In this document: positions 4,101 through 38,880 of the stretch, in pieces
How positions within the stretch are numbered: position 1 is the first letter of the stretch
How the letters are laid out: every line of letters starts with the position of its first letter
Assembly: GCA_914767715.1 (NCBI GenBank)
Contig: OU612074.1
Location: forward strand, 4,295,501-4,359,500
DNA from: Membranipora membranacea
Lineage: Eukaryota > Bryozoa > Gymnolaemata > Cheilostomatida > Membraniporidae
DNA length: 64,000 nucleotides
Reading direction: 5' to 3'
Made by a program: the position numbers and the translations under genes
Notes under the pieces: model-generated
What the model was told of the DNA's origin: nothing
The model's input: the letters and a program-made list of their open reading frames with translations, nothing else
The model's database searches: none

Positions 4101-7100
4101 ATGGAACAACCAATACCTACCAAATTATATGCTGAGGGGGTATGAAGGCATGTTATTGTTGCCCCTTATATAAAATTGTAAATGGGTGAATTGTACAGTA
4201 TACCAGTGTGGAAAGGGACAATCACTAACTTGAGCAAAACTTTATGAGCTGATTATAAATTTTTGTTTTTGTATTTATGCAGGGAAAGACTCAAGAGTAT
4301 GCGATACTTCTAGTTGTAAGCGCATGGTAGATTTTCGCTGCAGTGATTGCAAGAAATTTATCTGTTTTAAGTATGTTAATCGATTTTGTCAAATGTTTTG
4401 CAACATTTCTATTGAAATTCAAGTCTTCCCCATCCTCATAGAGTAGAAAAATTGTGAAATTCCGGTCTAAATGTTTTGAATTTTTACTTGCTTAATGGAT
4501 GTGATACTTCTGAAATGATCTGAGCATTTAGAACCTCATTGTTTTCTTAAAGACTTAGTTTAAGGCTGCTCTTTTGTATCACATCGGAATCTCCATATTC
4601 TATTCTATCATGTGAGCAATTTTCAGCTTTAGAATCCAAATATCGAGGAAGTTATTGCCTCTCAAACTTCCAGGGTGATTGCCTTCAATCGGCATTGGGA
4701 ATAAGCGGATGTTTCCCCTGGGGTACGTCACAACCATAGACATGTGCTTTGTCTATGGTCATACTTATTATGAGTTAATACACTAATAATCACACAGATA
4801 AGATGGGAATCGAACCCGGGTCCACAAACCTATAGGCAACGACGCTACCATCGCTCCACTTTGACCAACTAGGTGAGGCTGTAGACAATATAGCTCAGTG
4901 TCTGCAAAGCCATTTGGACCTGGGTTCGAGGCCGTTACAGATCTGAACATTTTGATGATCAAAATATTTATTAGTGTATCGTAATAAGTATGATGGTTGT
5001 GACGTACCATAGGGATTGCCGGCTGATTCTTACTGCCGATAAATTGCCGTCACCTTGGAGGTTTGAGAGGCCATAGCTTCCTCAGTATTTGGATTTGAAA
5101 GCTGGAATTCACTCACATGATAGAATAAAATATGGAGAATAAGATGTTATACAAAAGAGCAGCCTCACACTAAATCTTTAAGCTAGAGCCCCTGAAGATC
5201 TGGCTCTCTAGGCAATGTAAATCATGGATATAAGTTTTATTTTCATCTCAGATGCAGCAAGCATGGATTCTGTGAGGCTAGTGTCAGACATTCTGGTTGC
5301 AAAGAGGTACATGAACTGGAGGTTGAAGCTGAGCAGAAATTATTGCGATGGAAACAGTCTATAACAAAGCAGGTAGTCAACAACAAAAGTGTCATCTGTG
5401 TGCTGTGAAGATGTTAGACTATTTTTTATATGGGCCAAAAACATCTTATCCTACTTATACCTGCTTACGAATAGCAAGGTACTGGGAACGAAACGCTTGA
5501 AAGCATGAACAGTTTTGAGGTCATAATTCTTTAGTCACACATTGTCATAACCAGTATTATTGCACTGTACTTGGGTTAATGTCGTTATCATGCGATAGCC
5601 TGCCCCTATTGCCACAATAAACTCAGATGTTCCACGATAAACTTTTTAGTTCTCAATAACAGTACAAATACCAGATATTATGAATATCTATACTGCTCAT
5701 TACTTTAAAAAGATGAGCAGGGTATTTCTTATAGGAACTCAAGGACATTTATGTCCAAATAAAATATTTTAGCAATACAGCTGTGCTCTCGAGCCATAGT
5801 GACCAACGTGTTTATTGTTTATACAAATCTTCTTTCTCGATTTCTACTCGTCAATTATTTTGAGATAACAAAAAAATTCACCATCCAGTGCAATTCCTGA
5901 AACAGGCCATATTCCTTTTTTTCAGATCGAAAAGCTGAGAAATCTACTTGAAGATGTGGAATGTGTCTGGGACAAACACGAGGATGCTGTTAACCGCATA
6001 TTGTTGGCCGAGCAACTAGGTACTGTAGAAAATATTAATTTCTAACCCAATCAGTATACTGGCATTAATCATCTTCTCTTTTCTACCAAGCCCAGTTAAA
6101 AAATAACATAGCTGTAGATAGATAGCAGTTTGTCCTTGAAATCCATTGAGTAAACAGAGTGTGTTAAAATTCTGAGATAATCTGGAAGCTAATTTGGAAG
6201 AGACTTTTTAAATGTTGTTCATAGAGTGATTATGGAATATTCATGGTTGAAACTAAGGTAAATAAATAGCTAATCTATCTGACAATGAACTATTTTATTT
6301 TTTAGGAAACCAAACAGATGCTTTTGAAGATCAGCCATATATGGTGGGGATGGGCAAGATCTCAGTTCAATCAACTCTTAATGAAGCTTCTTATATCAAA
6401 CAAGACACTGGGGTAAAAATAAAATCATGCTTCAACTTCATCAAACCCACCAGAGAGCCGGAGATAAACAATAGGATGAATACAAAGAAGGCAGGTGCAA
6501 CGGTACGCAAAAAACACGTTTAACTGGAGAAAAGTTTCACTTGCGCAGTCAGTAAATTTGACCAAAAAAAAGATTTTGGGGGTATGACAAATGCAGAAAG
6601 CTATATTTAAAGTAACTCATTTGTTGTTGATAGATGAAGTAGTAGGAAAACCGTCAGCATTGTGATATGTTGAAAATAGTCATGCGTTTTACTTCATATT
6701 ATCTACAGAAACTAGAGTACACATTATCAGACACAGTAGCCCAGAGTACATCATCAGCCTCACCTCAAACTTCCTCCGAGGATATCAGTGAAACCCTGAA
6801 TAAGTTATTACTGATAGACTCAGCTCCCAACGAGACTGTCTTTGACTGGATCGACGGTAACCTGACAGCTGAAAAACGAAAAGAACCCAACTTCATAAGA
6901 TCTCTAACTCAAACAGTCGCCAAAGCTTGCATCAGTGAGTTTTCAGCCTACTTGGCAACTGAAGCCAAAATTTCCTGGCATATATCGTGTTTGAATTATG
7001 ATTTGTCAATTATTGTTTAGATTTGATTCACTAAACAGCTGCTAACCACCCTGAGAAACAGCTATCAAGAGATTTATTGACATTTTACTGACCATGACGT

Positions 7101-7732
7101 TGATTCTGTACTCAATTCCCTCTCTTAGTGTTACTTTTTCCACGGTCACATCATTGTACATTGTGCGCTTTTGTTTGCAGAGTCTAGCGAGTTGCAAGAG
7201 GAGACTTTTAGGGATCGTGCTCCCATGTTATTGAAGTATTATGACGGTAAACCCAATACAGAGTTGGCTGCTCTCAATGCACTAGAGGAATTAATGGATG
7301 AGCTGCAACACCCTTCCAGTAAGTCGATAAATATGTCAAGCGTGATAGAAAAGGCTGCAAATACCCCCATTTGTCTTATTTCTTCAGAGTTGGCAAAGCA
7401 TGTTATTTTTATCAGAACTATGCAGGACACAAGAATCACTTTAGTTGTCATTGATGTGTTTAGCTGTGATGTATCTGGCATCCAAATAGCATACCTATCG
7501 CAATTCTAACTGAAGCTGCAGAGATAGTCTCACCGTCTCACTCTCACTTATCAAACTGTCACATATATTTTTCCGTTTTATTTTAGAATTGCTCAGCGAT
7601 ATCTGTTATGCTCTCTCTGAAGAAGAGTTGATATCAGACGATTCATTCTTCGACTGGGAGCAAAATAGTAAAAATGGAATAGCTATCAAATCTGTATCAC
7701 AATTCTTCCAATGGTTACGGACTTATGATTAA
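1199..7732 (+). CDS. eIF4G-like / RING / B-box / W2 fusion gene, copy 1 (5' end outside the window)
   Basis: Phase-consistent exons by eye: 1199-1405, 1674-2048, 3369-3504, 3844-3975, 4283-4370, 5252-5372, 5926-6019, 6306-6502, 6709-6934, 7181-7318 and 7587-7732 (stop TAA). Exon 1 encodes KKRESKPLAIINPDTHETV, like the conserved KRERK...I.DP motif of the eIF4G N-terminal region. Exon 2 is lysine/serine/proline-rich and probably disordered. Exons 3-4 form a C3HC4 RING (CPIC, PCQHLICENC, then CPTC). Exons 5-6 give B-box type cysteine/histidine pairs (CDTSSC, CSDC, CSKHGFC, HSGC, HEL). Exon 7 is a short charged helix. The last three exons form a W2 HEAT domain (VFDWIDGNL, ALNALEELMDELQHP, SFFDWEQ, and the ending KSVSQFFQWLR), very like the C-terminus of eIF4G. 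No MIF4G or MA3 domain is present between them. I infer an E3-ligase-like protein built on eIF4G ends; activity is unproven. The upstream exons lie to the left of the window. Confidence 0.8.
4553..5185. mobile_element. Palindromic element with two inverted tRNA-like units, in the B-box intron (copy 1)
   Basis: The intron between the two B-box exons holds a long imperfect inverted repeat. The left arm around GGCTGCTCTTTTGTATCACATC and TTCTATCATGTGAG pairs with the right arm CTCACATGATAGAAT and ATACAAAAGAGCAGCC. Inside it, GTACGTCACAACCAT pairs with ATGGTTGTGACGTAC. The centre has two tRNA-like sequences. One is on the minus strand (about 4795-4865, T-arm GGTTCGATTCC) and one on the plus strand (about 4885-4955, TAGCTCAG A-box, TGCAAA anticodon-like loop, GGTTCGAGGCC B-box). 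In this copy the plus unit has lost about a dozen bases of the D-arm region that copy 2 keeps. This looks like two inverted tRNA-derived SINE-like units. Confidence 0.7.
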
Positions 7733-18714: not shown

Positions 18715-21700
18715 GTGCCTTTCAGAAGATAAAGGAATCTTGGACGATCAGAGTAACACAAAAAGGAAGCAGGGTGATCATATCTTATGTCCTGTTAATC
18801 TAGAAAATAAGAGAACCGAGAAATATCCAACCACAGTGCCTGAGATTGACATCAGTGTTGTACCAGGAGTCATGTCAGCTTACAACCCTAATATACGGCA
18901 GGTAGGAATTTGTGTTGTAATTTAAAGCTTTCTATGCGTATAATAACGTTGGTACAGGTGATGGCCAGCACCATAACTACTTGTGTGTCTGAGGGTCCTA
19001 GATTTGACATCTGGGGTTTGTTGTGCCACAATATGCTCAAACCTTCCCAAAAACAGAGAGAAATCAACATAACCAATTATACTGTTTTTTTTTATCATTG
19101 AAAAGCTAGGATTACCAGCATCACAAAAACTTACTTTTGAATACCTCAGGTGACATGACACAATATCACAGCTGACATGAATATGCAATCATATTTTCAT
19201 GTGTCTGAAATGTTGGTATCATAATTGTTCAGCCTTGTTACCGCCTTCTTGCGCTAAAATGCATTACTATAATTGCATTTCTTGAGAAACTATGGTAGTC
19301 TTTGAAGTCTTTTTACTGATGATAGCATATGATAGTTAACAGCTTTGTTTAGTTCGTTCAGGAGACCAGTGATGATAAATCCATCTATTCTATGAGATTC
19401 TTGTCAGTTTTGAGTGAAGTAGATGGACTCCATATTAACAACTTTGATGGCATTCCTCATTCTCAGTGTAATTTGTACACATAATGCATCTTTTGTCATA
19501 CTTGATTTCACCAGCAACGTGCCATGTCACAGCCTAGAGGAATACCCACCAATCATCAACGGGGACACAATATACACGGTATGAGCGGAACTTCGCCTCA
19601 AACACAGCCAATGCACTTTTCCCCTCAACATCCACAGCATATGATAGCTAATATGCCGGGACAAGCTATGGTATGTTTTATTGGAACTTATCATCAATTT
19701 CTACGTCAAAGTGTGTGAGTTTAATCGGCTGACAAGCTTTACCAAAATCTGTGTCATGCCGGTTAGAATCGGCTCCGAAACTTCAGTGCGATGAAATTTG
19801 GATTCAAATTGGGTTGTGCCGTTTGAAAGCTTCCAAGAAATTGTTACAAAGGGTGCAGATCTAACCTTCTGGTCTGGTATTTATTTCGATCAGAATTCAG
19901 ATGTCCTTGTTACATATTGTCAGGCTGGTAAGGTGGGCTTTTGGTTTTACGCCGTTAGTCAATACTGATTTTCTCAAGTTCCTAGCAGGGGTAATATCTC
20001 AAAATACTAGGTAATAATAAGCTTTAAATTCTATGATCAATTAATACTATTCAACTGTAGTTACTCAAGACAGATTAACTGAGGGAATTCCCTCCTAAAT
20101 ACTACAAAGAAATCTCACTGGGAAACCCTATTGTAATTTCCTTGTTATGACTGTACTTGTGTAATGTGTACAAGAATGTGATAAATTATGTATGACCTGT
20201 CTATGTTTATTTGTCTACACACTATGCTAATAAACCAAATTGATATCTCAAGTAAGCTATTATGTCAATAATCAAGTGCTTCGCTGAACAATAGGCAACT
20301 CAAAAATAGACTTTGTTCTACCGTTCACAGTTCTGGACAGAAAAGGCTACTTGGTAGAACTAAGACTATCCTCACCCTGACTCGCGGAAAATGTTACTTC
20401 AATGATCTTGTATGATATTATAATCAAAAGTTAACAGTAAAGATTAGCTTTACTATTACCTGACATACAACTGGATAGTTTTCTATGGTAACAAAATTAA
20501 ATTTCAGCCTTATAAATAACTAATTTCAATTACATCAAAGGATGACTTTAATTCAAGCTCTACAACAGTTACTAAGCTATGTTAATTGAAACTATTTGAC
20601 CCAAGCGAAGCAGTCTCAATTGCCAAAACAAACTGCTTTACGCCCCATTTTTGGTATGCCAATATATACCCTGAAGTGCCACCTGCCCGGCTAGTAAATA
20701 TTAGCCTCTTGCAAATTTTGAATTAATTAAAAACAAAAATCAAATGACACTTTAACTTCATAAAAATTGAGGTACAAATAAACTTCCAAAGTCTCAAAAA
20801 TAATTACCTTATAAATAATAATACGGTACTTACTATATTCCAGTGAAGTCTGTCTAAATTAAACTTGTACTCCTCAAGTCTATATTTCTTCTTTGAGAAC
20901 GCCTCTGTCACTGTGTCGTCAAACTTGTACTCCTTATGTCTCTATTTCTCCTTTGTGAACGCCTCTGTCACTGTGTCTTAAAACTTTTATTCTTTAAGTC
21001 TGTATTTCTCCTTTGTGAACGCCTCTGTCACTGTGTCTTCAAACTTGTACTCCTTATGTCTGTATTTCTTCTTTGAGAACGCCTCTGTCACTGTGTCTTC
21101 AAACTTGTACTCCTTATGTCTGTATTTCTTCTTTGTGAACGCCTCTGTCACTGTGTCTTCAAACTTGTACTCCTCAAGACTGTATCTCTTCTTTGTGAAC
21201 GCCTCTGTCACTGTGTCGTCAAACTTGTACTCCTTAAGTCTGTATTTCTTCTTTGTGAATGCCTCTGTCACTGTGTCTTCAAACTTGTACTCCTTATGTC
21301 TCTATTTCTCCTTTGTGAACGCCTCTGTCACTGTGTCTTAAAACTTTTATTCTTTAAGTCTGTATTTCTCCTTTGTGAACGCCTCTGTCACTGTGTCTTC
21401 AAACTTTTACTCCTCAAGACTGTATCTCTTCTTTGTGAACGCCTCTGTCACTGTGTCGTCAAACTTGTACTCCTTAAGTCTGTATTTCTTCTTTGTGAAT
21501 GCCTCTGTCACTGTGTCGTCAAACTTGTACTCCTTAAGTCTGTATTTCTTCTTTGTGAACGCCTCTGTCACTGTGTCTTCAAACTTGTACTCCTCAAGAC
21601 TGTATCTCTTCTTTGTGAACACCTCTGTCACTGTGTCTTCAAACTTGTACTCCTTAAGTCTATATTTCTTCTTTGTGAACGCCTCTGTCACTGTGTCGTC

Positions 21701-24700
21701 AAACTTGTACTCCTTAAGACTGTATCTCTTCTTTGTGAACGCCTCTGTCACTGTGTCTTCAAACTTGTACTCCTTATGTCTCTATTTCTTCTTTGTGAAC
21801 GCCTCTGTCACTGTGTCGTCAAACTTGTACTCCTTAAGTCTGTATTTCTTCTTTGTGAATGCCTCTGTCACTGTGTCTTCAAACTTGTACTCCTCAAGAC
21901 TGTATCTCTTCTTTGTGAATGCCTCTGTCACTGTGTCTTAAAACTTGTACTCCTTAAGTCTGTATCTCTTCTTTGTGAATGCCTCTGTCACTGTGTCTTA
22001 AAACTTTTATTCTTTAAGTCTGTATTTCTCCTTTGTGAACGCCTCTGTCACTGTGTCTTAAAACTTTTATTCTTTAAGTCTGTATTTCTCCTTTGTGAAC
22101 GCCTCTGTCACTGTGTCTTCAAACTTGTACTCCTTATGTCTCTATTTCTTCTTTGTGAACGCCTCTGTCACTGTGTCTTCAAACTTGTACTCCTCAAGAC
22201 TGTATCTCTTCTTTGTGAACACCTCTGTCACTGTGTCTTCAAACTTGTACTCCTTAAGTCTCTATCTCTTCTTTGTGAATGCCTCTGTCACTGTGTCTTA
22301 AAACTTTTATTCTTTAAGTCTGTATTTCTCCTTTGTGAACGCCTCTGTCACTGTGTCTTAAAACTTTTATTCTTTAAGTCTGTATTTCTCCTTTGTGAAC
22401 GCCTCTGTCACTGTGTCTTCAAACTTGTACTCCTTATGTCTCTATTTCTTCTTTGTGAACGCCTCTGTCACTTTGTCTTCAAACTTGTACTCCTTATGTC
22501 TCTATTTCTTCTTTGTGAACACCTCTGTCACTGTGTCTTAAAACTTGTACTCCTTAAGTCTGTATCTCTTCTTTGTGAATGCCTCTGTCACTGTGTCTTA
22601 AAACTTTTATTCTTTAAGTCTGTATTTCTCCTTTGTGAACGCCTCTGTCACTGTGTCTTAAAACTTTTATTCTTTAAGTCTGTATTTCTTCTTTGTGAAC
22701 GCCTCTGTCACTGTGTCTTCAAACTTGTACTCCTTATGTCTCTATTTCTTCTTTGTGAATGCCTCTGTCACTGTGTCTTCAAACTTGTACTCCTTAAGTC
22801 TGTATCTCTTCTTTGTGAATGCCTCTGTCACTGTGTCTTCAAACTTTTATTCTTTAAGTCTGTATTTCTCCTTTGTGAACGCCTCTGTCACTGTGTCTTC
22901 AAACTTGTACTCCTTAAGTCTGTATCTCTTCTTTGTGAACGCCTCTGTCACTGTGTCTTCAAACTTGTACTCCTTAAGTCTGTATCTCTTCTTTGTGAAC
23001 GCCTCTGTCACTGTGTCTTCAAACTTGTACTCCTTAAGTCTGTATCTCTTCTTTGTGAATGCCTCTGTCACTGTGTCTTCAAACTTTTATTCTTAAAGTC
23101 TGTATTTCTCCTTTGTGAACGCCTCTGTCACTGTGTCTTCAAACTTGTACTCCTTAAGTCTGTATCTCTTCTTTGTGAACGCCTCTGTCACTGTGTCTTC
23201 AAACTTGTACTCCTCAAGACTGTATCTCTTCTTTGTGAACGTCTCTGTCACTGTGTCTTCAAACTTGTACTCCTTAAGTCTGTATCTCTTCTTTGTGAAT
23301 GCCTCTGTCACTGTGTCTTCAAACTTTTATTCTTTAAGTCTGTATTTCTCCTTTGTGAACGCCTCTGTCACTGTGTCTTCAAACTTGTACTCCTTAAGTC
23401 TGTATCTCTTCTTTGTGAACGCCTCTGTCACTGTGTCTTCAAACTTGTACTCCTCAAGACTGTATCTCTTCTTTGTGAACGCCTCTGTCACTGTGTCTTC
23501 AAACTTGTACTCCTTAAGTCTGTATCTCTTCTTTGTGAACGCCTCTGTCACTGTGTCTTCAAACTTTTACTCCTTAAGTCTGTATCTCTTCTTTGTGAAC
23601 GCCTCTGTCACTGTGTCTTCAAACTTTTATTCTTTAAGTCTGTATTTCTCCTTTGTGAACGCCTCTGTCACTGTGTCTTCAAACTTGTACTCCTTAAGTC
23701 TGTATCTCTTCTTTGTGAACGCCTCTGTCACTGTGTCTTCAAACTTGTACTCCTTAAGTCTGTATCTCTTCTTTGTGAACGCCTCTGTCACTGTGTCTTC
23801 AAACTTTTATTCTTTAAGCCTGTATTTCTCCTTTGTGAACGCCTCTGTCACTGTGTCTTCAAACTTGTACTCCTCAAGACTGTATCTCTTCTTTGTGAAC
23901 GCCTCTGTCACTGTGTCTTCAAACTTGTACTCCTTAAGTCTGTATCTCTTCTTTGTGAACGCCTCTGTCACTGTGTCTTCAAACTTGTACTCCTCAAGAC
24001 TGTATCTCTTCTTTGTGAACGCCTCTGTCACTGTGTCTTCAAACTTGTACTCCTTAAGTCTGTATCTCTTCTTTGTGAACGCCTCTGTCACTGTGTCTTC
24101 AAACTTTTATTCTTTAAGTCTGTATTTCTCCTTTGTGAACGCCTCTGTCACTGTGTCTTCAAACTTGTACTCCTTAAGTCTGTATCTCTTCTTTGTGAAC
24201 GCCTCTGTCACTGTGTCTTCAAACTTGTACTCCTCAAGACTGTATCTCTTCTTTGTGAACGTCTCTGTCACTGTGTCTTCAAACTTGTACTCCTTAAGTC
24301 TGTATCTCTTCTTTGTGAATGCCTCTGTCACTGTGTCTTCAAACTTTTATTCTTTAAGTCTGTATTTCTCCTTTGTGAACGCCTCTGTCACTGTGTCTTC
24401 AAACTTGTACTCCTCAAGACTGTATCTCTTCTTTGTGAACGTCTCTGTCACTGTGTCTTCAAACTTGTACTCCTTAAGTCTGTATCTCTTCTTTGTGAAT
24501 GCCTCTGTCACTGTGTCTTCAAACTTTTATTCTTTAAGTCTGTATTTCTCCTTTGTGAACGCCTCTGTCACTGTGTCTTCAAACTTGTACTCCTTAAGTC
24601 TGTATCTCTTCTTTGTGAACGCCTCTGTCACTGTGTCTTCAAACTTGTACTCCTCAAGACTGTATCTCTTCTTTGTGAACGCCTCTGTCACTGTGTCTTC

Positions 24701-27700
24701 AAACTTGTACTCCTTAAGTCTGTATCTCTTCTTTGTGAACGCCTCTGTCACTGTGTCTTTAAACTTGTACTCCTTAAGTCTGTATCTCTTCTTTGTGAAC
24801 GCCTCTGTCACTGTGTCTTCAAACTTTCATTCTTTAAGTCTGTATTTCTCCTTTGTGAACGCCTCTGTCACTGTGTCTTCAAACTTGTACTCCTTAAGTC
24901 TGTATCTCTTCTTTGTGAACGCCTCTGTCACTGTGTCTTCAAACTTGTACTCCTTAAGTCTGTATCTCTTCTTTGTGAACGCCTCTGTCACTGTGTCTTC
25001 AAACTTTTATTCTTTAAGTCTGTATTTCTCCTTTGTGAACGCCTCTGTCACTGTGTCTTCAAACTTGTACTCCTTAAGTCTGTATCTCTTCTTTGTGAAC
25101 ACCTCTGTCACTGTGTCTTCAAACTTGTACTCCTTAAGTCTCTATTTCTTCTTTGTGAACGCCTCTGTCACTGTGTCTTAAAACTTTTATTCTTTAAGTC
25201 TGTATTTCTTCTTTGAGAACGCCTCTGTCACTGTGTCTTAAAACTTTTATTCTTTAAGTCTGTATTTCTCCTTTGTGAACGCGTCCCGGTTGCTACCCAT
25301 TCTGCTGAAGGAGGTGAGCTCTCCGATCAATGGCCTAGCTTGCCCACCCTTACATTGTACAAGGGTGCGCTAATTAGATGAGTCATATTATGTATCATGT
25401 ATCATGTGTCATGTGTCATGTATCATGTGTCATGTGTCATGTGTCATGTGTCATGTGTCATGTGTCATGTGCCATGTGTCATGTGTCATGTATCACGTAT
25501 CACGTATCATCAATCTTATGTATCACGTATCACGTATCACGTCTCACGTATCACGTATCACATATCACACTTGGGGGCCAACCAAACCCCAGTAGTTGAT
25601 GGACTTTAGTGGGTTTTCAACCCACGACCTCCAATATCCTTCCATGCTAAAGGAATGGCGCTCTAACCAATTGAGGCACCTCCTACTCCCTCGTCATTAT
25701 CACATGTGATGAATTACACTTTGAAATTAGTTCTGGGTACCAATGACTTTACGACAGGGGAATTTCATATAATAGTATCAACATTCGATGACTCCGCAAT
25801 TATACATTCCACCATTACACACATAAAAAAACTACATCGCATGTATGTAGATTTGAAACATGGGTTTAACCTGGAGTTATGCTTTCACAGTTCTATCATG
25901 CGAGTGTCAAAGATGGGATTATAATTGCAAGGACCTGCAAAGTCAGCAAACCATTGTCATTTATATGTATGTACAGGTAATGTGGAATAGGAATATGGAA
26001 TATGCTCATGATCTAAAATTGATAGCTAAAGATGATTGCGCAATTTATGAACAGGTATAAAAAGGAAGGTGGTATGGTGCAGCACATGTGTGATATACTA
26101 AATACAAAGAATGATGAGACTCAGATACTATCAAGGTCCATAAATCTCCTATAGCCTATGACTACATGTAATAATTCATATAATGTATGTAAATAATAAC
26201 ATTCAGACGACGGGACGTTGCCGCAGCGGACAGGCGTAACATCTTAATTATGGATGGCTATTGCTGCACTTCTAGCTCTATCAACATTAGGGTTGGAACG
26301 ACCTCTTGAGGTTGGAGTTGAATTTCAGATATTTGACGTCGGATTCAACCACAAACCGGATCGGATATGTGTTATGTCTGATCCGAGATGATACGTTTTT
26401 AATCAACACTTACTTAGCATCATTTATCCCACTAAAAATGACAAGGAAGGAAGTATGATAGTCATTAATTTGTGGTTCTGATTAGATAATGGAGTTTGGC
26501 TGAAAGCACTCGGTGATCGGTAGGCAATCAATACCTATCTTATTTTCATAGCTAGTTATATTGTTGCCGATTAAGTTTGATGGATGTGTTTTTCTGCTGA
26601 AATTGAGAGAAGCATCTTTACTCAGATCGTTGTGAATAGGGACATAATTTTTCTACAAATATGTTCCCTGTAACAAACTATCTAGTTTAATGTACAAGGT
26701 TATCCTCTTCTTCAAAGTAGGAGGACAATTCCTATCCTAATCACAGCAGAGAGTTTGGGACATATGAGCAGGGAGTTTGTTCAAACTCAATGATTACAAA
26801 CATTGGGGTTTGAGTGATCCTGCCAAATTGAGTCAAGAGATATTTGTACTCATTAAATGATACTTTTAAATATACTATTTGCGTGATCATTGCACCGTGG
26901 CTGTTTGAGTGATAAGTTGGTCCTTGTAAAGTATTATATCCAAGCAGATACATACGCATTTAAATTGGGGTAATGGTTCAGGGAAAAGATTGTTGACGCT
27001 GTTTATCCATGTATTCAATGACCTTAACTGTATATTATGGTCCAAAGGTACAGCTGCTTGGACTTAGCGTTTGTACGCGTTATCCGGATCCGATCCGAGG
27101 TTGAATCCAACGACCGATTCGATATCCGATCCGAGGTTGCCTAACCCTGATCCGTTCCACCCCTAATCAACATTACAACGAAGACAAAAACGCATATATC
27201 ACAACCCTGGCAACTACTGATGGCCAACTGTGTCCCAACTGCGCCAGCAGTTTTGCAACCGTTGGGCGTGTTGACCAGACACACCGCTACATCAATGACT
27301 CTGGAATCCAACAGCATGCTATAAAGAGCATCTGTTGCCCAACCAATTCAAGCGCTACAAAACAATCGACTGCCAAACAAAAAATCTTCAGGCAAATCAA
27401 GCTAAAACAATAAACCAGCTAAATGTAGACATCGGCCTATGTCCAATTAACCCTTCACCTCAGCTGGCCCGCATTGACCGGCGACTGACTTGCATGCATG
27501 GCTGGAACATCTGGCCCAACCAACGCGGAATCCTCACAGGTGTTTGCCTCACCTTTCCATTTGTCCCAGTATTAATTTCTAAGCAATACACCATGGTCAA
27601 GTGATATAAATTTCCACATGTTCAAGGACTACTCTTTGGCAGCTTCAAAAAAATCAATTCTATATGCCGTGAAAAAGATGGCATTACTTAATTTATTTTC

Positions 27701-30700
27701 CTAAAAGCTGCCAATATTAATGTTCACTCACAATTGAGTGATGATGATATTTTTTGATGGTGATGGCTAATTGATGGCACTATGGTTGGTTATCCCTAAA
27801 ATGTCTTTTACCTATCAACATTCATCAATTTGCAGTGGTGCCCAATCCATGTTTATTTCCAAGTTAGATGACATAATTTACATTGGCAATAGCTTGTTCG
27901 AATTTACAGTAGACAATTAATCCCTTAATTACAAAATTTTCAGAATGAGTCAGACAGCCAGAATGGTTTCATTTGTGATAATCCAAATAAATCTGAATGA
28001 TAAACATGACTGAGCTAAAAACAATGCAAACAGATATTACCTTGAGAATTCCATGAAATTAAGAATTAAGCCTCATTTAATTTCGGCAATAGAATGTCAA
28101 TACACAGTGTTGAGATTAGTGTCTCTCATGGAAGAAATTTTGTTATTACACAATTGGAGCAGGGCTTATGTTTGATAATATCTACATATTGCCATGCCGG
28201 AAGCAATAAATTTCCGTGTTCTCGCCGAGCGCAATAAACCGAACTTAAATTGGGTATACACAAATTGGAATACAAAAATTGGAATACAAAAAATGCTCTG
28301 CGAGTCATTAAGGGAATTGGACCAGGGGGTCACATTTCCAGTCATTTTGAAAAAATTTAAAATCAAGCCATTGCAAATGCTTTTTGAATACAGAACTTTA
28401 AAACTTTTATTAAAATCATATTCAATTCAAGATATTTTAAATATGAAAACAAACCATGAGTACAACACTAGATCCAACAAACAAAATTATTAAGACAAGC
28501 AACAAGCGAGGAGAGAGGTCTTCGTTGAGCAATGGCATAGCCTTGTTCAACAATTACCTTTCGGGAGTTTGGACGGGGCCAGGATGCGATCTCACAGTTG
28601 GGCTGGCGGGGCGTCTCTGGTCGTGCAGTGGATAGCGGGTACGGTGGGCATGTTTTGCCTGGGCTTTTCATGATGTTCGTGTGGTGTTCTTGTAATTAGT
28701 TGGAGGGTTGGCCGCCACTCTGGTCGCAGACTATCTGGCTGACCAATGCTTTTATTTAATTTATTTGAACATTTAATCGCTTAATTTACAATGTTTCTTT
28801 ATCGCAAAATACAGAAAAAAAAAGTCCTTAATATCTAGTGAAAATTGCCTCAATCAATATTGAATTAGGCCGGTATTGCTTTGTACAATCTGTCTGACAA
28901 TTTTTGTGGTTTTCCCTTGTACCAACCATGATACAGCATACCTAGCTTACTTGGTGTTGACAATTACCCACACATTTTTCTAAGGTACCTGTCCATGACT
29001 TACAGATCAATGGTGATCATTTCTGGTCCCTGATAAGAGAGCAAACAGTAATACAATATTTTGAGCTTACCGCAGCTACTCTAAAATGAAGTTAAGAGCA
29101 GGTGACCTTCAGAAACTTAATTATTTTAATTTCGTAGTGATAACGACCGATAAAGAATTTTTTGGCTCTATTCCCTGTAGGTAAATGGATATTAGTTCAA
29201 TCAAGTTCGTTGTAATTTGCCTGCATTTATGAGTTTTTGGTGCCAGTCATTATACGCAAAGGGCAGCTCCAAGTGCACGCATACCAGAGCAAATCCAATA
29301 TATTTGTTTATAAAAATACAGCACAGTTGTTCTGTCGCATATTCGACCCACTTGGGGCCGAATACCCGAGCAGAACAGACACCACTATTTCATTCATTTT
29401 GCTCATGTTTATTTTGTATGGAGTTAAGTTCCTCCTGTTGAGGAAGAAGGCAGGAAGCAAGGAAGAAGACTCCATACAAAAAGTGTTTTGTTTACCTAAT
29501 CAAATTTATCCACAACATTGTTCTTTAGAATTTTGTTACAAGCAGATATTAATTCAATTTACTAATGACTAATAGTTGAGATGCCTTTCGACATTAAAAT
29601 AAGGCTTTATTTTGATTAAATGGTGGAAATAAGTTTAAACAGTCATTGTAAAAAATAAACCATGCTCTATCATACCGTCAAAGTTTCCTGTGTAAAAGGT
29701 CAGAATAGGTCAACTCCAAAACAGTAATTCGTAGTACGCTCCAAAATAGTAATACGCTCCAAAATAATAGTAATACCAAAATATTGCAGAGTAATATGCT
29801 GCTGAGGGCTCTCCAAAAGAACTGCCCTGCCTTGATGTTCCCCCGGTTTTTATATGCACCGGGGTTCATCACGGAGGGTGAGCATGGCCAAAAAACCGGA
29901 GGTTGCATTTGCCCATCCTCTTGACAAAAGCAGAGATTTGATTTAGGTTTTTTGTCCGATAAAAAGGTTTTAATTATATAAATCATTTAAATGCTTGCGT
30001 TTGAACCCTCCAAAAAGACGGAGATTGGACTTTAATTTATGTCTGATAAAAAGGTTTTAATTATATATATTATTTAAATGCTTGCGTTTGAACCCTCCAA
30101 AAAGACGGAGATTGGATATAAATTCTTTGTCTGATAAAAAGCTTTTAATCATACACATTATTTAAATACTTGCGATAAAAAGGTTTAATTATACACATTA
30201 TTTTAAAGTGGTTGACGCCGTCTGGTATCACCTGCTCCCATCCTCTTGGCTCCATTCTCTTTATCTGAAGTCTCCTGAGCTGTGAGAACTTGAGATCTCA
30301 CAGTTCAATAAGAAAAAAACGATGTTGATCTCCCACAAGACAAGTCTTATTCCTCATCATTACATAATAGAAATATATTTCATACCATGATGCATCCTTG
30401 GTAACTAATACCTGAAGATCATCATTTGAAAATTTATAAGGATGGACTTATTATGATATGTTCTTTTTGTGTTTACAGTATCATCCTCAACAACAGATAG
30501 CACAGCTCTCACAGTACCCAGGGCAGCCTGGATATTATATACTTCCTGCTGGCGGCAAACCACAACCCCAAGGTTTGATGTCCTTTAAATTGATTTGTTG
30601 TGACTTACTAAGATATTTCCAACCATTGTTTTCCTAAATAAATTGAAGAACAACGATGAGATGTGAATGGAGATCTACTCTCTCAATTCAATACAATTTA

Positions 30701-33700
30701 TCCGATTGAATAAAAGTGAGTAATATTAGTTTGCTCATTGAAAAATCTCCGATTCACTATGGAGTTATATGAGGGCGCACCAAACTGCTGCAAGTGCAGT
30801 GTCGTAGTGTTCAATTCAACCACTTTGTTTAAAATGAGCTAATGTTACTATATAACAGTTTTTGTTTTGGCAAACATATCATATCATATCACAGGTCAAG
30901 GAGAAAAGGATTGGATAAAATGTATTGATCAATGGAGAAGGGGAGTCTTCATCCTTCAAGTTGTATTCTTTCAGGTATGCAGTATGCAGCTTATGCTGCT
31001 GCTGCACAACAACAGTTGCAGCAGCAGCAGCAACCACAAGGGATCCCCATGCAAGCACCTCCACAGGGACCTCCCCAACAACAACATGGCGGTCAGCAGC
31101 AGGGACGTCCCGCTTCTCAGCCTGGTATGGGAGGTATGCCTGTACAACAACCTAACAATGCTGCAATGAGCCAGTCTATGTCAGGCAGTTTCCCTCAAAG
31201 TCAACAACCCCAACAGTCTCAAATGGTAGCACCGATGCCTCAACAGCAAATGCAACCACGACAACCTAATCCATACGCTCCTGCATTTCAACCGCCGGTG
31301 AGTAAAATACTATAATGAAGAATGCAAGTTTCTTGTTTGCTTTAAAACATAGCATAATTCTCATCGTCAGAAGTGTTTATGCGCCGCCGACAATACCTCA
31401 GGAATTTCCATAAAATGGTTCTCATCCAAGGAAACATTCATGTTAGCAAATGTTTGTATTTTCTAATATTGGTACAAAAAACTTACAGTGTGATATTTTT
31501 ACTGATATATAATGTATCCTTAGTTAACTAAGCCCAGCAGAAGGTTTAATCCACAGTAACTCCATATACTGACCTAATCATATATGTTGTTTCCACCCAT
31601 TGGTTATTTTTGACAGGCTGCTTTACAAAAGAGGGAGCGCAAACCACTAGCTATAATTATCCCAGACACACACGAGACTGTGAATAAAGAAGCACTCACT
31701 AAACCTCCGACTAGTGCAGCCTCAGATTCTACTAGTAAAACAAGCACGCCACCACCTAGCACAGATAGACAAATGTCCAATGAACAGGCTCAACCCGCTG
31801 CCCCCACTGAGGCAGACAAAACTGTAAGATAACCAGTATGTTGTTCCGTTTTTTTCTTAGATTGTATACTTAGAAGTGCCACATCCTTGCATACATAAGA
31901 CAAACTGAACGAGTAATGCTTCATCGCTGTGATGCCATGGATCGAGGGAAGATCTGATTCTTAGTGTAAATTGTGCTCATTGGCCCAGAAGTTATATTAA
32001 AAGGCTAACTTATGGAAATTTCATATTCATGTTCATATTGATTTTATTTTTTATTTTATAATCATTATTTGGAATTGGTCCTTTTAAAGGTACCTGCTGC
32101 TGAAAAGTATGTATCTGCCACCGATAAAGCTTCCTCCCCAAAACCACCACCTAGTGAGAAGCCACAGAAAAATAACAAAAAAACCTCTGCTACAAAAAAA
32201 GCGAGATCACCTAAAACTAAAATAGCACCAAAAACTGCTGCTGTTGAAACTCAAAAATCTGTCTCAAAAATTGGTAAAACAAACAACCTGGCATGGGAAA
32301 AGTCCCCAACGACAAGTAAACATGATAGAGAGAGTGTAAAAAAGGAGCCATCAGCTAAACTAGAGCAAACTAAACCTGTATCAGAAAGTAATCCAACTGC
32401 CAAGGAAAGTCAAAAGGAGGTAGAGAGAGTCGGCAAGGCTACAACCAAATCATCAGTAGCTACAAAGGTTCGCTATCTTTATTGCGCAGATTGTATTTCC
32501 CATTTGCCGATTGGTGGTTTTGTTGGTCCAGATCAAGTGGATAGAAAATTAGGCATTATTAGTCTATTTGGTGTCTCTAAAAGCTAAACATAAACCGTAC
32601 CAAATTCTCATCAATCATTGGGCACCACCATTACCCTTCAATTATGTGATTAACTTATTCCACTATACCTATGTGGAATTGTAAGACATAATTTATATTA
32701 ATATCAATCTTTTCTACCCCTATATTCATTTTATTTCATTCAAATTAACATTTTCGCTAGCAGGATGAGAAAGTTATTTACCCCTTTTTGAACCGACCTA
32801 GTTCTGAAATATACAAGCAATTTCCCACCACCATTGAACCACCACTCTCTGGGTCACAAATCTAACCGCTGGTACTTTTCCATTGCCGAACTTGCCTACC
32901 CAAAAGTCTTGTGACATTTTCACCCACAAAACCTAATTCATCAATGGGGTGCAGAGTCTAAGTCTGTAGCATCTGTTCTAAAAACGATGCGGAAATAAAT
33001 GTGGAAAATACAGCGTTTTTTACATCTAAAGAACTCATTTTTTCTTGAGCAATGTGACAAGGCTCAGTTATTTAATAACACAGTAGTGTGTTATAACTTG
33101 TAAAATTTACTAACTATAACCTGGCCTTTAAGCCTCATATTTTGTAGTTATCTTATCTTACCTCTAGCATTATCTAGTACCACGGCACGCCATATGGCGA
33201 GTTATGCTAATTTACTTATCTCGTCAGTTCGCGGGTTTTTCTCGTTCCTATTATTCTAAATAACTGAAGAAGCAAATCGTCTTTTCCCAATTACCACCCT
33301 CCCACCCTAAAGTACTACCTAATGTTACTATGTTTCTCAGTGTGTGAAAGGTGACTTGGGTGCATGTGTGGTTGGTGCTAAATTTTCCGCCTTTTCTAAA
33401 GTATCAAGGCCGCTTTTCCTCCTATAAAGTTTTTGCCTGCCCATGTTGTTCTCCAGCAACTTACTGTACTTACTTAAACATTTTATTTCTAAGTTATTGG
33501 GGTTAACCAGGAAATGGCGTATTAGTCGCCCCCTTCCTATAGGGGAACCCCCAGCTATCTTGTTAATCATTGAGGTAAATGAAAAACATGTTTAAGAGGT
33601 TCTCTAAACTAAATTTATATCTAGCTATTGTGATAGTGAGAGGGCTGTTATACAAATAAATGATCTAAAATTGCTTGCTGACACTGTACCACTATAAAAA

Positions 33701-36700
33701 CAAGTGTATCAACGTGACGGCTGCTAGTTCTAAAGTGAGCAGACTAACAGTCTGTCGCTGACATGTTTTAGGATGTTAGGGGAATCATGAGCGTCCAGAG
33801 TGATCCTAGCAGTGTGTTGGAGGATCATATCTCATGTCCTATCTGTACAGAAGTTGTACCTCTGAGGATACCTCCCTGTCAACATCTCATATGTGACAAC
33901 TGTATAGGTGAGATTATTTGTAATTAACTCTTTGCCCTCACATTGACTGAATTTTCTAAGAAATTTAGACCCTACTTATTGAGATGTTCTCTTGTCCAAA
34001 TGGATTTTTCTATTTATTCTATTCTCGTGAACAGGTTATTCGCTGAGGAAAACTTCTTTTTCAGCCTGCGTATGTTTTTACCAGTTATCCCTTCTTTGCT
34101 AATAGAGTACAGCCATTTTCAGAATTACCACAGATACTCAAGCCAATAATCAAACACCAGCATTGTCAATTGGAATGATAATTTCTCGTTTGATCACTCC
34201 TTTTCAATTTTTCTTAATGTATTATTTCAATAGGAAGCTGGAGTGCCCGCTCCAAATCGAGGGATAAATTTAGCTGCCCAACATGTAGGAAGGATTGTGA
34301 TGTTAACCTGCCTGTGCTCAGAATCTTAGAGAATATCAAAGATTCACTCCTAAGCAAAACTCCTTGTAAGTACATATTTATTCAAATTACGCTGTGACAA
34401 ACTTTGTGTACAAAATACCCAACATGATATATCTGAGAAGAGCAGAATCACAATGAGTATTTAAGAGTCGATACTAAGCAAAGCTCATCGATGGAACAAT
34501 CAATACCTAACAAATTATATGCTGAGGGGGTATGAAGGCATTTTATTGTTGCCCTTTATATAAAATTGTAAATGGGTGAATTGTACAGTATACCAGTGTG
34601 GAAAGGGACAATCACTAACTTGAGCAAAACTTTATGAGCTGATTATAAATTTTTGTTTTTGTATTTATGCAGGGAAAGATTCAGGAGTATGCGATACTTC
34701 TAGTTGTAAGCGCATGGTAGATTTTCGCTGCAGTGATTGCAAGAAATTTATCTGTTTTAAGTAAGTTAAACAATTTTGTCAAATGTTTTGCAACATTTCC
34801 ATTGAAATTCAAGTCTTCCCCATCCTCATAGAGTAGAAAAATTGTGAAATTCCGGTCTAAATGTTTTGAATTTTTACTTGCTCAATGGATGTGATACTTC
34901 TGAAATAATCTGAGCATTTAGAACGTCATTGTTTTCTTAAAGACTTAGTTTGAGGCTGCTCTTTTGTATCACATCTGATTCTCCATATTCTATTCTATCA
35001 TGTGAGCGATTTTCAGCTTCAGAATCCAAATATTGAGGAAGTTATTGCCTCTCAAACTTCCAGGGTGATTGCCTTCAATCGGCATTGGGAATAAGCGGAT
35101 GTTTCCCCTGGGGTACGTCACAACCATAGACATGTGCTTTGTCTATGGTCATACTTATTATGAGTTAATACACTAATCATCACACAGATATGATGGGAAT
35201 CGAACCCGGGTCCACAAACCTATAGGCAACGACGCTACCATCGCGCCACTTTGACCAACTAGGTGAGGCTGTAGACAATATAGCTCAGTGTTAGCGGCGT
35301 TGGCTGCAAAGCCATTTGGACCTGGGTTCGAGGCCGTTACAGATCTGAACATTTTGATGATCAACATATTTATTAGTGTATCGTAACAAGTATGATGGTT
35401 GTGACGTACCATAGGGATTGCCGGCTGATTCTTACTGCCGATAAATTGCCGTCACCTTGGAGGTTTGAGAGGCCATAGCTTCCTCAATATTTGGATTCTA
35501 AAGCTGGAATCCACTCACATGATAGAATAAAATATGGAGAATAAGATGTTATACAAAAGAGCAGCCTCAAACTAAGTCTTTAAGCTAGAGCCACTGAAGT
35601 TCTGGCTCTCTAGGCAATGTAAATCATGGATATAAATTTTATTTTTATCTCAGATGCAGTAAGCATGGATTCTGTGAGGCTAGTGTCAGACATTCTGGTT
35701 GCAAAGAGGTACATGAACTGGAGGTTGAAGCTGAGCAGAAATTATTTCAATGGAAACAGTCTATAACAAAGCAGGTAGTCAACAACAAAAGTGTCATCTG
35801 TGTGCTGTGAAGATGTCAGACTATTTTTTATATGGGCCAAAAAACATCTTATCCTGCTTATACCTGCTTACGAATAGCAAGGTACTGGGAACGAAACGCT
35901 TGAAAGCATGAGCAGTGTTGAGGTCATAATTCTTTAGTCACACATTGTCATGACCAGTATTATTACACTGTACTTGGGTTAATGTCGTTATCATGCGATA
36001 GCCTGCCCTTATTGCCACAATAAACTCAGATGTTCTACGATAAACTTTTTAGTTCTCACTAACAGTACAAATACCAGATATTATGAATAGCTATACTGCC
36101 TCATTACTTTAAAAAGATGAGCAGGGTATTTCTTATAGGAACTCAAGGACATTTATGTTCAAATAAAATATTTTAGCAATACAGCTGTGCTCTTGAGCCA
36201 TAGTGACCAGCATATTTATACAAATCTTCTTTCTCGATTTCTACTCGTCAATTATTTTGAGATAACAAAAAAATTCACCACCCAGTCGATTCCTGAAACA
36301 GGCCATATTCCTTTTTTTCAGATTGAAAAGCTGAGAAATCTACTTGAAGATGTGGAATGTGTCTGGGACAAACACGAGGATGCTGTTAATCGCATATTGT
36401 TGGTCGAGCAACTAGGTACTGTAGAAAATATTAATTTCTAACCCAATCAGTATACTTGCATTAATCATCTTCTCTTTTCTACCAAGCCCAGTTAAAAAAT
36501 AACATAGCTGTGGATAGATAGCAGTTTGTCCTTCAAATCCATTGAGTAAACAGAGTCTGTTAAAATTCTGAGATAATCTGGAAGCTAATTTGGAAGAGAC
36601 TTTTCAAATGTTGTCCATAGAGTGATTATGGAATATTCATGGTTGAAACTAAGGTAAATACATAGATAATGCTTTACACAATGCTATCTATCTGACAATG

Positions 36701-38147
36701 AACTACTTTATTTTTAAGGAAACCAAACAGATGCTTTTGAAGATGAGCCATATATGGTGGGGATTGGCAAGATCTCAATTCAATCAACTCCTACAGAAGC
36801 TTCTTATATCAAACAAGTCACTGGGGTAAAAATAAAATCATGCTTCAACATCATCAAACCCACCAGAGAGCCGGAGATAAACAATGGGATGAATACAAAG
36901 AAGGCAGGTGCAACGGTACGCAAAAAACACGTTTAACTGGAGAAAAGTTTCACTTGCGCAGTCAGTAAATTTGACCAAAAAAAGATTTTGGCGGTATGAC
37001 AAATGCAGAAAGCTATATTTAAAGTAACTCATTTGTTGTTGATAGATGAAGTAGTAGGAAAACCGTCAGCATTGTGACATGTTGAAAATAATAATGCGTT
37101 TTACTTTATATTATCTACAGAAACTAGAGTACACATTATCAGACACAGTAGCCCAGAGTACATCATCAGCCTCACATCAAACTTTCTCGGAGGATATCAG
37201 TGAAACCCTGAATAAGTTATTACTGATAGACTCAGCTCCCAACGTGACTGTCTTTGACTGGATCGACGGTAACCTGACGGCTGAGAAACGAAAAGAACCC
37301 AACTTCATAAGATCTCTAACTCAAACAGTCGCCAAAGCTTGCATCAGTGAGTTTTCAGCCTACTTAGCAACTGAAGCCAAAATTTCCTGGCATATATCGT
37401 GTTTGAATTATGATTTGTCAATTATAAATTGTTTAGATTTGATTCACTAAACAGCCGCTAACCACCCTGAGAAACAGCTATCAAGAGATTAATTGACATT
37501 TTACTGACCATGACGTTGATTCTTTACTCAATTCCCTCTCTTAGTGTTCTTTTTCCACGGTCACATCATTGTACATTGTGCGCTTTTGTTTGCAGAGTCT
37601 AGCGAGTTGCAAGAGGAGACTTTTAGGGATCGCGCTCCCATATTATTGAAGTATTATGACGGTAAACCCGATACAGAGTTGGCTGCTCTCAATGCACTAG
37701 AGGAATTAATGGATGAGCTGCAACACCCTTCCAGTAAGTCGATAAATATGTCAAGCGTGATAGAAAAGGCTGCAAATACCCCCATTTGTCTTATTTCTTC
37801 AGAGTTGGCAAAGCATGTTATTTTTATCAGAACTATGCAGGACACAAGAATCACTTTAGTTGTCATTGATGTGTTTAGCTGTGATGTATCTGGTATCCAA
37901 ATAGCATACCTATCGCAATTCTAACTGAAGCTGCAGAGATAGTCTCACCGTCTCACTCTCACTTATCAAACTGTCACATATATTTTTCCGTTTTATTTTA
38001 GAATTGCTCAGCGATATCTGTTATGCTCTCTCTGAAGAAGAGTTGATATCAGACGATTCATTCTTCGACTGGGAGCAAAATAGTAAAAATGGAATAGCTA
38101 TCAAATCTGTATCACAATTCTTCCAATGGTTACGGACTTCTGATTAA
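18715..38147 (+). CDS. eIF4G-like / RING / B-box / W2 fusion gene, copy 2 (most complete)
   Basis: Phase-compatible exons: 18715-18901 (least certain), 19515-19670, 30479-30572, 30975-31297, 31617-31823, 32090-32467, 33772-33907, 34234-34365, 34673-34760, 35654-35774, 36322-36415, 36719-36915, 37121-37346, 37596-37733 and 38002-38147 (stop). The N-terminal exons are Q/P/G/M-rich, with SQYPGQPGYYILPAGGK and a polyglutamine stretch. They resemble the region of animal eIF4G just before its KRERK motif, which here reads LQKRERKPLAIIIPDTHETV. A lysine-rich disordered segment follows, then a C3HC4 RING (CPICTEVVPLRIPPCQHLIC, CPTC), B-box zinc fingers, a charged helix and a C-terminal W2 domain ending SVSQFFQWLRTSD. 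In eIF4G, W2 is the Mnk kinase docking domain and the N-terminus binds PABP; sharing these ends suggests a translation-linked ubiquitin ligase, by inference. I see no eIF4E-binding YxxxxL motif, MIF4G or MA3. The intron 19671-30478 is 10.8 kb and holds the 60-bp array. The start codon is not identified. Confidence 0.75.
19671..20862 (+). other. Large intron, left part
   Basis: AT-rich sequence between the GTATGT donor at 19671 and the 60-bp array. No exon, RNA gene or transposon recognised. Confidence 0.4.
20863..25282. repeat. 60-bp minisatellite array, about 74 units (4.4 kb)
   Basis: The unit is TCTGTATCTCTTCTTTGTGA then ACGCCTCTGTCACTGTGTCT then TCAAACTTGTACTCCTTAAG, with phase kept exactly through the array. 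Variant units carry TTTTATTCTTTAAG, CCTCAAGAC, CTGTGTCGTC, GTCTCTGTC or GTGAAT. Because 60 is a multiple of three, several frames stay open: one plus frame for 1366 codons and another for 688. The minus strand encodes a hydrophilic 20-residue repeat (TEAFTKKRYRLKEYKFEDTV) but is cut by TAA stops in the TTTTAT and CTTAAAAC variants. It lies in the large intron of the copy-2 fusion gene. It is best read as a non-coding VNTR; the open frames follow from the period. Confidence 0.95.
25384..25570. repeat. Heptamer microsatellite (TCATGTG / TCATGTA / TCACGTA)
   Basis: Tandem 7-bp units run from ATGTATCATGTGTCATG to ATCACGTATCACATATCAC. The first part is mainly TCATGTG and the second part is mainly TCACGTA, so one C/T change spread through half the array. 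It lies shortly after the 60-bp array. The overlapping cysteine/histidine-rich open frames are artefacts of the repeat. Confidence 0.9.
25608..25688 (-). tRNA. tRNA-like sequence (possible pseudo-tRNA or SINE head)
   Basis: On the minus strand GGTGCCTCAATTGGTTAGAG resembles a D-arm with A-box, and GTGGGTTGAAAACCCAC resembles a T-arm. Between them, TTTAGCA sits where an Ala-type AGC anticodon would be. The anticodon stem is weak, the loop spacing is off by one, and the T-loop lacks the usual TTCGA. It is probably a decayed tRNA or tRNA-derived repeat, not a working gene. Confidence 0.4.
25690..26279. other. Unassigned intron sequence left of the hAT-like element
   Basis: Nothing recognised. 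The short frames at 25706-26060 show no domain and overlap one another. Confidence 0.3.
26288..27165. mobile_element. Non-autonomous hAT-like element (878 bp) with 8-bp target duplication
   Basis: The ends are TAGGGTTGGAACG on the left and its imperfect reverse complement CGTTCCACCCCTA on the right. Both sides are flanked by ATCAACAT (26280-26287 and 27166-27173). An 8-bp target duplication with TAGGG-type ends fits the hAT superfamily. Subterminal inverted motifs related to GGATTCAACC and GATCCGATCCGAGGTTG occur near both ends. No transposase is encoded. It lies inside the 10.8-kb intron. Confidence 0.85.
27174..29930. other. Intron sequence with possible old retroelement debris
   Basis: The frame at 28194-28493 ends HEYNTRSNKQNY, which recalls the end of some LINE polymerases (YNTRS motif), but nothing else confirms it. 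The stretch 27180-27620 has interrupted open frames in several phases and no recognised domain. Nothing else is supported. Confidence 0.3.
29938..30210. repeat. Tandem repeat of about 90 bp, three units
   Basis: Three units share GATAAAAAGGTTTTAATTAT, TTATTTAAATGCTTGCG and CCCTCCAAAAAGACGGAG. The third is shortened and its last part repeats GATAAAAAGGTTTAATTATACACATTATT once more. It lies upstream of the exon at 30479. Confidence 0.8.
34945..35590. mobile_element. Palindromic tRNA-like element in the B-box intron (copy 2)
   Basis: Partner of the element at 4553-5185. The plus tRNA-like unit (about 35277-35345) is fuller here. It has TAGCTCAGTGTTAGCGGCG as A-box region, GGCTGCAAAGCC as a Cys-GCA-like anticodon arm, and GGTTCGAGGCC as B-box. 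The minus-strand unit is at about 35175-35255 (B-box GGTTCGATTCC). The outer arms pair as in copy 1. Confidence 0.7.
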
Positions 38148-38344
38148 ACGGCTTAATTTCTTCAAATTACTGCATGAAATACTGAGTTGGGAGTACAAAA
38201 CGAAATGTTCTTTAAAATACTGACGTTTGTATTCCCTAAGTTTTCCATATGTAGAGGAAAACTCCCAACTCTTACTGAGCAACTTGGAATGGTGCTATAA
38301 GCTTACCATTACAACCAATATTATTATCAATATGGTATATATAT

Positions 38345-38880
38345 ATATTCCATGTTTATTCTGGAGAAGAATAAGTCCTTAGGACTTGTACCCAGAAAAC
38401 AGAAAAATTGATAAAAATATGGTGTAGAATTAAAAAGACATGTAACTAAAAATCAAGAACAATGACAGGTAAAATTACAACGTACACGCAGGCATTAATT
38501 AGCAGTAAAACATTACACAAGTTGATACACAATAGCTAGGAAAAGAAAAGTTAGAACAATGTAGCAGTAGGCTAAAATGAAATGATAAGAACTGACTCAT
38601 TAATTGAGAAGTTTGAGGACGTGGCTCCGAGTGGCATTTTTGAATGTAGCAAGGGATTGACTCAGCTTAACATGATTGGGTAATTCGTTAAACTTCTGAG
38701 CACCGATATTAGCTAAAGCAATTTTAAAATTTTCCTTGGATAGTCTAAACCCAGAACTTTTAGCAAGCCGAGTTTCACTAGTTAATTTCTCGGGGAGCAG
38801 ATTGGTATCAATTATTGGGACTAAACTATTAACAATTTTAGTATATGATGATAATCTATGAATTCTGTCAATTTAGATGT
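38345..38880 (-). mobile_element. 3' end of a LINE retrotransposon, copy 2
   Basis: Same truncated insertion as at 7936-8465, with the same C-terminal polymerase peptide (NIGAQKFNELPNHVKLSQSL) ending in TAA and a TA tail at about 38335-38349. The shared position in both copies shows the insertion is older than the duplication. Confidence 0.75.

Follow-up and report, generated by a model that had tools for sequence, protein, structure and literature searches.

One example of a TRIM protein joined to another host protein is TRIMCyp, a primate fusion of TRIM5 with cyclophilin A that arose by retrotransposition. W2 domains are found outside eIF4G in DAP5/eIF4G2 and BZW/5MP, proteins that are without parts of eIF4G. 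For eIF4G itself, the C-terminal domains of the human protein are cited in a HEAT-domain paper as binding eIF4A and Mnk1 (PMC9467303), and eIF4GI is described as being cleaved by a viral protease (PMC2776998). No description of a RING-eIF4G fusion was found among the titles and abstract openings listed in searches of open-licence papers, and neither MIF4G nor eIF4 occurs in a further paper (PMC3503706).

In the bryozoan Membranipora membranacea, the joining of a RING module to the W2 tail of eIF4G is supported by a junction common to five gene copies, in which the junction itself is identical, the splice sites are in phase 0 and the frames are intact. The DNA analysed here is a 64,000-nucleotide window (C10:4295501-4359500, where C10 is contig OU612074.1) of an assembly searched over 339 Mb in 18 contigs. 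Judged from its sequence, this window probably carries two of the five copies of a RING-W2 hybrid gene, whose most likely action would be that of a RING ligase targeted by its W2 domain.

Organisation of the proposed hybrid gene

In the proposed hybrid, a RING/zinc-finger/helix module (exons R1-R6) would be spliced in phase 0 onto the three 3'-terminal exons of eIF4G (W1-W3); the product, of approximately 420 aa, would have an N-terminal RING and a C-terminal W2 (Table 1). This RING-zinc finger-W2 form is the likely gene, and some copies may also encode an 808-aa form that includes the N-terminal region of eIF4G. The longer form was assembled for window copy 2 (A3) only, where 14 exons between 19515 and 38147 of the forward strand splice into a single 808-aa frame with a stop at its end, with GT/AG at 13 of 13 introns and consistent phases. 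The RING module begins and ends in phase 0; the same phase is found at W1 and at the N4 donor of an ordinary eIF4G copy. R1 contains an ATG 15 bases in, the three bases directly ahead of the exon are an in-frame TAG, and we think that R1 could serve as the first coding exon. Homology to an ordinary eIF4G copy sets in 55 bp ahead of W1, which places the breakpoint inside the R6-W1 intron. The R6 donor (GTACGC) deviates from the consensus, which counts against a RING-W2 gene. Repeats are also present around the module: a MITE-like inverted repeat (window 34936-35584; 72% over 682 columns) lies in the R3-R4 intron, and a repeat of approximately 970 bp occurs at window 35-1014, 2141-3125 and 32560-33528 (95-97%), two of its copies being located in the N4-R1 introns of both window copies, near the presumed recombination site.

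Table 1. Exons, associated features and gene copies of the RING-eIF4G locus; positions are those of the window unless preceded by C10.
Feature	Position	Strand	Description
Na	18719..18901	+	probable relic of exon R7 of sister RING-eIF4G genes; the gene model works without it
Exon Nb	19515..19670	+	eIF4G-like N-terminus, ATG at 19524, phase-0 donor; long form only
60-bp tandem repeat array	20861..25282	+	inside the Nb-N1 intron
Exon N1	30479..30572	+	YYILPAGG; long form only
Exon N2	30975..31297	+	Gln/Pro-rich; long form only
Exon N3	31617..31823	+	KRERK; long form only
Exon N4	32090..32467	+	Lys-rich; long form only
Pre-R1 stretch, 192 bp	33580..33771	+	about 90% identical to the equivalent place in type B2
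Exon R1	33772..33907	+	RING first half, own ATG at 33787; AG/GT sites, PF13445 match
Exon R2	34234..34365	+	RING second half (CPTC)
Exon R3	34673..34760	+	Cys-rich zinc-finger-like segment (B-box of the first-pass annotation)
Exon R4	35654..35774	+	remainder of Cys/His segment, then start of probable helix (by eye)
Exon R5	36322..36415	+	probable helix (by eye)
Exon R6	36719..36915	+	linker; phase-0 donor to W1
R6-W1 intron end	37066..37120	+	homology to ordinary eIF4G copies starts at about 37066 (fusion breakpoint)
Exon W1	37121..37346	+	eIF4G C-terminal domain
Exon W2	37596..37733	+	second of the last three eIF4G exons
Exon W3	38002..38147	+	PF02020 core and stop codon
Copy 1, N exons	1199..2048	+	N3 1199-1405, N4 1674-2048
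Copy 1, R1-R3	3369..4370	+	R1 3369-3504, R2 3844-3975, R3 4283-4370
Copy 1, R4-R6	5252..6502	+	R4 5252-5372, R5 5926-6019, R6 6306-6502
Copy 1, W exons	6709..7732	+	W1 6709-6934, W2 7181-7318, W3 7587-7732
Type A1	R1 at C10:4207675		R1-R6 then directly W1-W3
Type A2 (window copy 1)	R1 at C10:4298869		R1-R6 then directly W1-W3
Type A3 (window copy 2)	R1 at C10:4329272		R1-R6 then directly W1-W3
Type A4	R1 at C10:4431351		R1 match starts three residues in
Type A5	R1 at C10:4492560		R1-R6 then directly W1-W3
Type B1	R1 at C10:4224963
Type B2	R1 at C10:4388496
Type B3	R1 at C10:4530461

In the spliced 808-aa protein, residues 742-808 match the Pfam W2 profile PF02020 (E 9.9e-10) and pass its cut-off; the window is not among the seven places found by an exon-by-exon genome search with this profile, since the domain is divided over exons. 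Among Protein Data Bank structures, the W exons match human eIF4G1 (6zmw, E 7.7e-18; 1ug3, E 6.6e-14). The RING is matched by PF13445 at residues 405-444 of the same protein (E 1.4e-7) and above the cut-off in the RING module alone (E 2.9e-8), and it weakly matches the structures of TRIM30, RNF126, CBL and TRIM5 (E 2.7e-4 to 1.7e-3), with TRIM34 also matched. No variation occurs at the eight C3HC4 ligands across the four aligned paralogues (two of the five type A copies and two of type B, the copy at C10:4572019 being excluded), the ligand pattern of this putative E3 ligase being intact. Neither MIF4G nor MA3 gave a Pfam match in the spliced protein, and none of their 22 and 11 genome-wide exon-by-exon matches, respectively, lies within the window. 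No eIF4E-binding YxxxxL-phi motif was found in the 808-aa protein, and the eIF4G-like N-terminal exons have no Pfam, NCBIfam or PDB match, though they are paralogous to exons of an ordinary copy.

The first-pass annotation had described a phase-consistent exon chain running from an eIF4G-like N-terminus through a RING and B-box fingers to a C-terminal W2, with MIF4G and MA3 absent. In this description, the exons, their phases, the RING, the W2 and the two absences are borne out by the searches above, and the B-box is not: PF00643 was not listed, PF22586 reached only E 0.22 in the module and E 4.5 in the spliced protein, and a four-sequence profile compared with solved structures returned RING structures and an unrelated PCNA chain in which no stretch passed alone, with no B-box structure listed. 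We call R3-R4 a zinc-finger-like segment rather than a recognised B-box; R4-R5 is probably helical, as judged by eye. The exon placed first in that annotation, from 18715, has been reassigned as well, as it more likely represents a relic of R7, the exon that follows the RING module in the sister genes, and the eIF4G start is likely the ATG at 19524.

Tandem copies and sister genes

The window holds two tandem copies of the gene in a 30.4-kb unit, with positions 1016-14645 repeated as 31434-45045 (96.75% identity over 13,675 aligned positions); the gene copy at 1199-7732 had escaped the first-pass annotation, as had three more outside the window. The order of RING followed by W2 occurs five times (type A) in a cluster of approximately 0.5 Mb where eIF4G copies with MIF4G, MA3 and W2 are present as well. 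In all five copies R1-W3 (1272-1278 bases) is without stops or frameshifts and the splice sites are kept. Genome-wide, the RING module has 72 matches, of which twelve are first RING exons in C10:4.2-4.67 Mb, and nine of the 22 MIF4G matches and five of the 11 MA3 matches fall in C10:4.14-4.65 Mb. W1-W3 resemble the W exons of those cluster copies that adjoin MIF4G and MA3 exons. The hybrid would have arisen here, among the duplicated eIF4G genes, through an intron-to-intron deletion or recombination that led to the loss of MIF4G and MA3.

Another arrangement has been found in the type B genes, three copies of a diverged RING module (R2 66%) that lie 12-19 kb before MIF4G exons. In B1 (C10:4231827-4232195) and B3 (C10:4534834-4535202), a single open frame joins exon R7 to exon Nb of eIF4G; these two R7-Nb exons are nearly identical and may reflect a single shared event. 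In a further copy, with RING exons from C10:4572019 and R7 from C10:4582954, R7 and Nb stand apart as two exons, with sites in phase 0 by eye, and the eIF4G start codon is ATA. B2 has R7, with no Nb match nearby. The joining of RING and eIF4G thus appears to have taken two forms, RING-W2 and RING before eIF4G, and to have happened more than once, since the type B module precedes eIF4G and does so twice within one open exon.

Several other elements were observed in the region. Between the R7 and eIF4G exons of B2, reverse-transcriptase-like open frames are present that appear LINE-like by eye (C10:4395562-4398472). Two copies of a transposase-like open frame, hAT-like by eye, occur on the forward strand of the window at 11356-13435 and 42024-43839, both split over two frames and inside the duplicated unit, and a 344-bp unit is present in seven tandem copies (98%) at window 60601-63000. 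Window 14647-15961 shares 93.5% identity with the stretch that precedes a type B RING module (C10:4386641-4387945); no RING exon match follows it in the window before copy 2, and it is perhaps a deleted type B copy. Elsewhere on the contig, three MIF4G matches and four diverged RING matches lie in C10:14.73-14.95 Mb, perhaps an older relative of the cluster.

Divergence and selection

The type A copies are young (1-4% non-coding divergence), and the variant and indel counts given here exclude N4. Over R1-W3, the five copies carry 23 synonymous and 31 non-synonymous variants, against a neutral expectation of 74% non-synonymous (p 0.005). The corresponding counts are 18 and 24 in R1-R6 (p 0.008), 9 and 16 in R2-R6 alone (p 0.145), and 5 and 7 in W1-W3 alone (p 0.19), so that selection against amino-acid change in R1-W3 is significant, modest and leans on the RING exon. 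Between A1 and A3, R1 differs by 8 synonymous and 1 non-synonymous changes, and A3 shares 97% identity with type B2 over R1, as opposed to 90% over the 192 bp upstream; together these suggest gene conversion of R1, which weakens the selection signal, as it rests partly on this exon. The upstream stretch is a candidate promoter, 5' leader or gene-conversion tract.

Indels provide a further measure, with a single in-frame 6-base indel in 1278 coding columns compared with 12 in 3294 non-coding columns, 11 of which are not a multiple of three; at the non-coding rate, by arithmetic, the coding part should have accumulated approximately four frameshifts. The chance of finding no stop in R1-W3 under neutrality is 0.08, which is not negligible and counts against a RING-W2 gene. 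R6 shows the opposite trend, with 8.5 non-synonymous and 0.5 synonymous changes between A1 and A3, but these numbers are too small for a claim of positive selection. Comparison of ordinary with type A copies over W1-W3 gives dN/dS of 0.18-0.42; however, of the codon differences fixed between the five type A and the five ordinary copies, 2 are synonymous and 5 non-synonymous, so the constraint seen in W1-W3 may lie mostly on the ordinary side, and the founding branch of type A shows no constraint.

Transcripts and alternative gene models

Protein collections were queried with RING-W2, with the RING module alone and with N3-N4-R1-R2, considering subjects of 0.55-1.75 times the query length, and no protein crossing N4-R1 or R6-W1 was found among the matches of these three queries. 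One match (P0001) is a 282-aa piece of ordinary eIF4G that aligns across four introns and is for that reason probably derived from RNA; it supports the W1-W3 splice sites in general, without bearing on the fusion. The W2 part has a 77% relative in P0002, and a third match (P0003) represents unspliced R1 plus the following intron and is therefore genomic. No transcript of a type B gene was seen either.

As the first-pass annotation proposed, the eIF4G N-terminal region, the RING module and W2 may form a single protein, which here would have 808 aa and start at the ATG at 19524; this is a substantial possibility, if not the outcome that we would expect. The joining of all 14 exons in one frame in window copy 2 argues for it, as do the presence of Nb before each of the five type A copies and of N1-N4 matches upstream of R1 in all five (full length in A1, A3 and A5). 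N1 and partial N4 matches are found 2.5-3.4 kb before R1 of B1 as well, the place and phase of the N4 donor are as in the ordinary eIF4G copy, the AG acceptor of R1 is kept in five of five copies, and Nb is conserved relative to the ordinary copy (dS 0.065, dN 0.017). Against this, N4 is almost neutral between the window copies (dS 0.083, dN 0.074; for N3, dS 0.086, dN 0.046) and, at dS 0.46 and dN 0.34, is loosely constrained relative to the ordinary copy too. A4 has a one-base deletion, and hence a frameshift, in N4 and only partial N2 and N3 matches, and A2 has a partial N2 match, yet both keep the RING-W2 half intact. The ATG carried by R1 itself, the lack of any N1-N4 match in the 8.5 kb upstream of R1 in B2, a Nb-N1 intron of 10.8 kb containing a 4.4-kb repeat, and the absence of a transcript of this form from the protein-collection searches all count against the long form.

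Division of the locus into two or three separate genes or remnants appears unlikely; these would be an eIF4G N-terminus cut short, a RING gene whose last exon is R6, and W exons left orphaned. Such a RING gene is possible in that R6, read past its donor, meets a stop at the seventh codon; eIF4G and RING exons also alternate along the cluster, and the N4-R1 interval contains two AATAAA and two TATA-like hexamers, a number for which chance could suffice. However, the frame, splice sites and stop of W1-W3 are kept in all five copies, their variant density (0.0235 per site, compared with 0.044 in non-coding columns) would be unexpected for orphaned exons, and W1 begins in phase only 205 bp after R6 in window copy 2. 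It is similarly improbable that the hybrid is a functionless, decaying by-product of an unstable tandem array, whether transcribed or not. The youth of the copies, the near-neutral N4 and the fixed W differences would fit such decay, which has plainly occurred in a sister RING copy (C10:4604669, where R2 is absent and R3 runs into R5), but the non-synonymous deficit within type A and the freedom of R1-W3 from frameshifts in every copy stand against it. An assembly or haplotype artefact is very improbable: near-identical tandem copies are hard to assemble, but exon differences of 0.8-4% separate the type A copies, A4 excepted, and a separate 989-bp JGI contig carries a type A-like R1 region, without the junction.

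Proposed function and relation to known systems

In the RING-W2 hybrid that we favour, W2 would be the targeting or bait part and the RING would recruit an E2, leading to ubiquitylation of proteins that bind W2, be they partners of eIF4G or foreign proteins directed against it. A decoy role, also suggested in the first-pass annotation, is likewise hypothetical. Were transcription to follow the model, the hybrid would be a ubiquitin ligase whose targeting domain is taken from the translation scaffold of the cell itself. It would then tie RING ligases directly to the initiation of translation and would offer a test case for hosts turning a favourite pathogen target, eIF4G, into bait. If transcripts confirm it, a hybrid of a RING with an eIF4G tail would be an unusual kind of protein, and the five RING-W2 copies with the parallel RING-eIF4G genes form a natural series of a fusion forming and spreading.

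Tandem growth, gene conversion and turnover are often shown by host-pathogen genes, and their occurrence here underlies a broader and more tentative suggestion. In this suggestion, which we regard as rather doubtful, the eIF4G-RING genes joined in two ways would constitute an expanding family of bait ligases that lure pathogen factors or eIF4G partners to RING-marked destruction. If true, the family would be an animal counterpart of the integrated decoy, built on the translation machinery.

Like animal eIF4G (eIF4G1/3), the hybrid has a C-terminal W2 region, and the N exons of the possible long form are paralogous to those of an ordinary copy in the cluster, but it has a RING module in place of MIF4G, MA3 and the YxxxxL-phi motif. 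DAP5/eIF4G2 and BZW/5MP, unlike the hybrid, have no RING, and a probable DAP5-like gene, so named by inference, stands separately at C1:8.11 Mb. With TRIM/RBCC ligases it shares a C3HC4 RING, a second Cys/His segment, probable helices and a separate C-terminal domain, while differing in that no B-box is recognised by the profiles used; to our knowledge, W2 is not among the TRIM C-terminal domains. As opposed to TRIMCyp, the hybrid arose, in our reading, by rearrangement within a tandem cluster, and an antiviral action is without support here; as in TRIMCyp, a RING module is joined to a host protein that is bound by pathogens.
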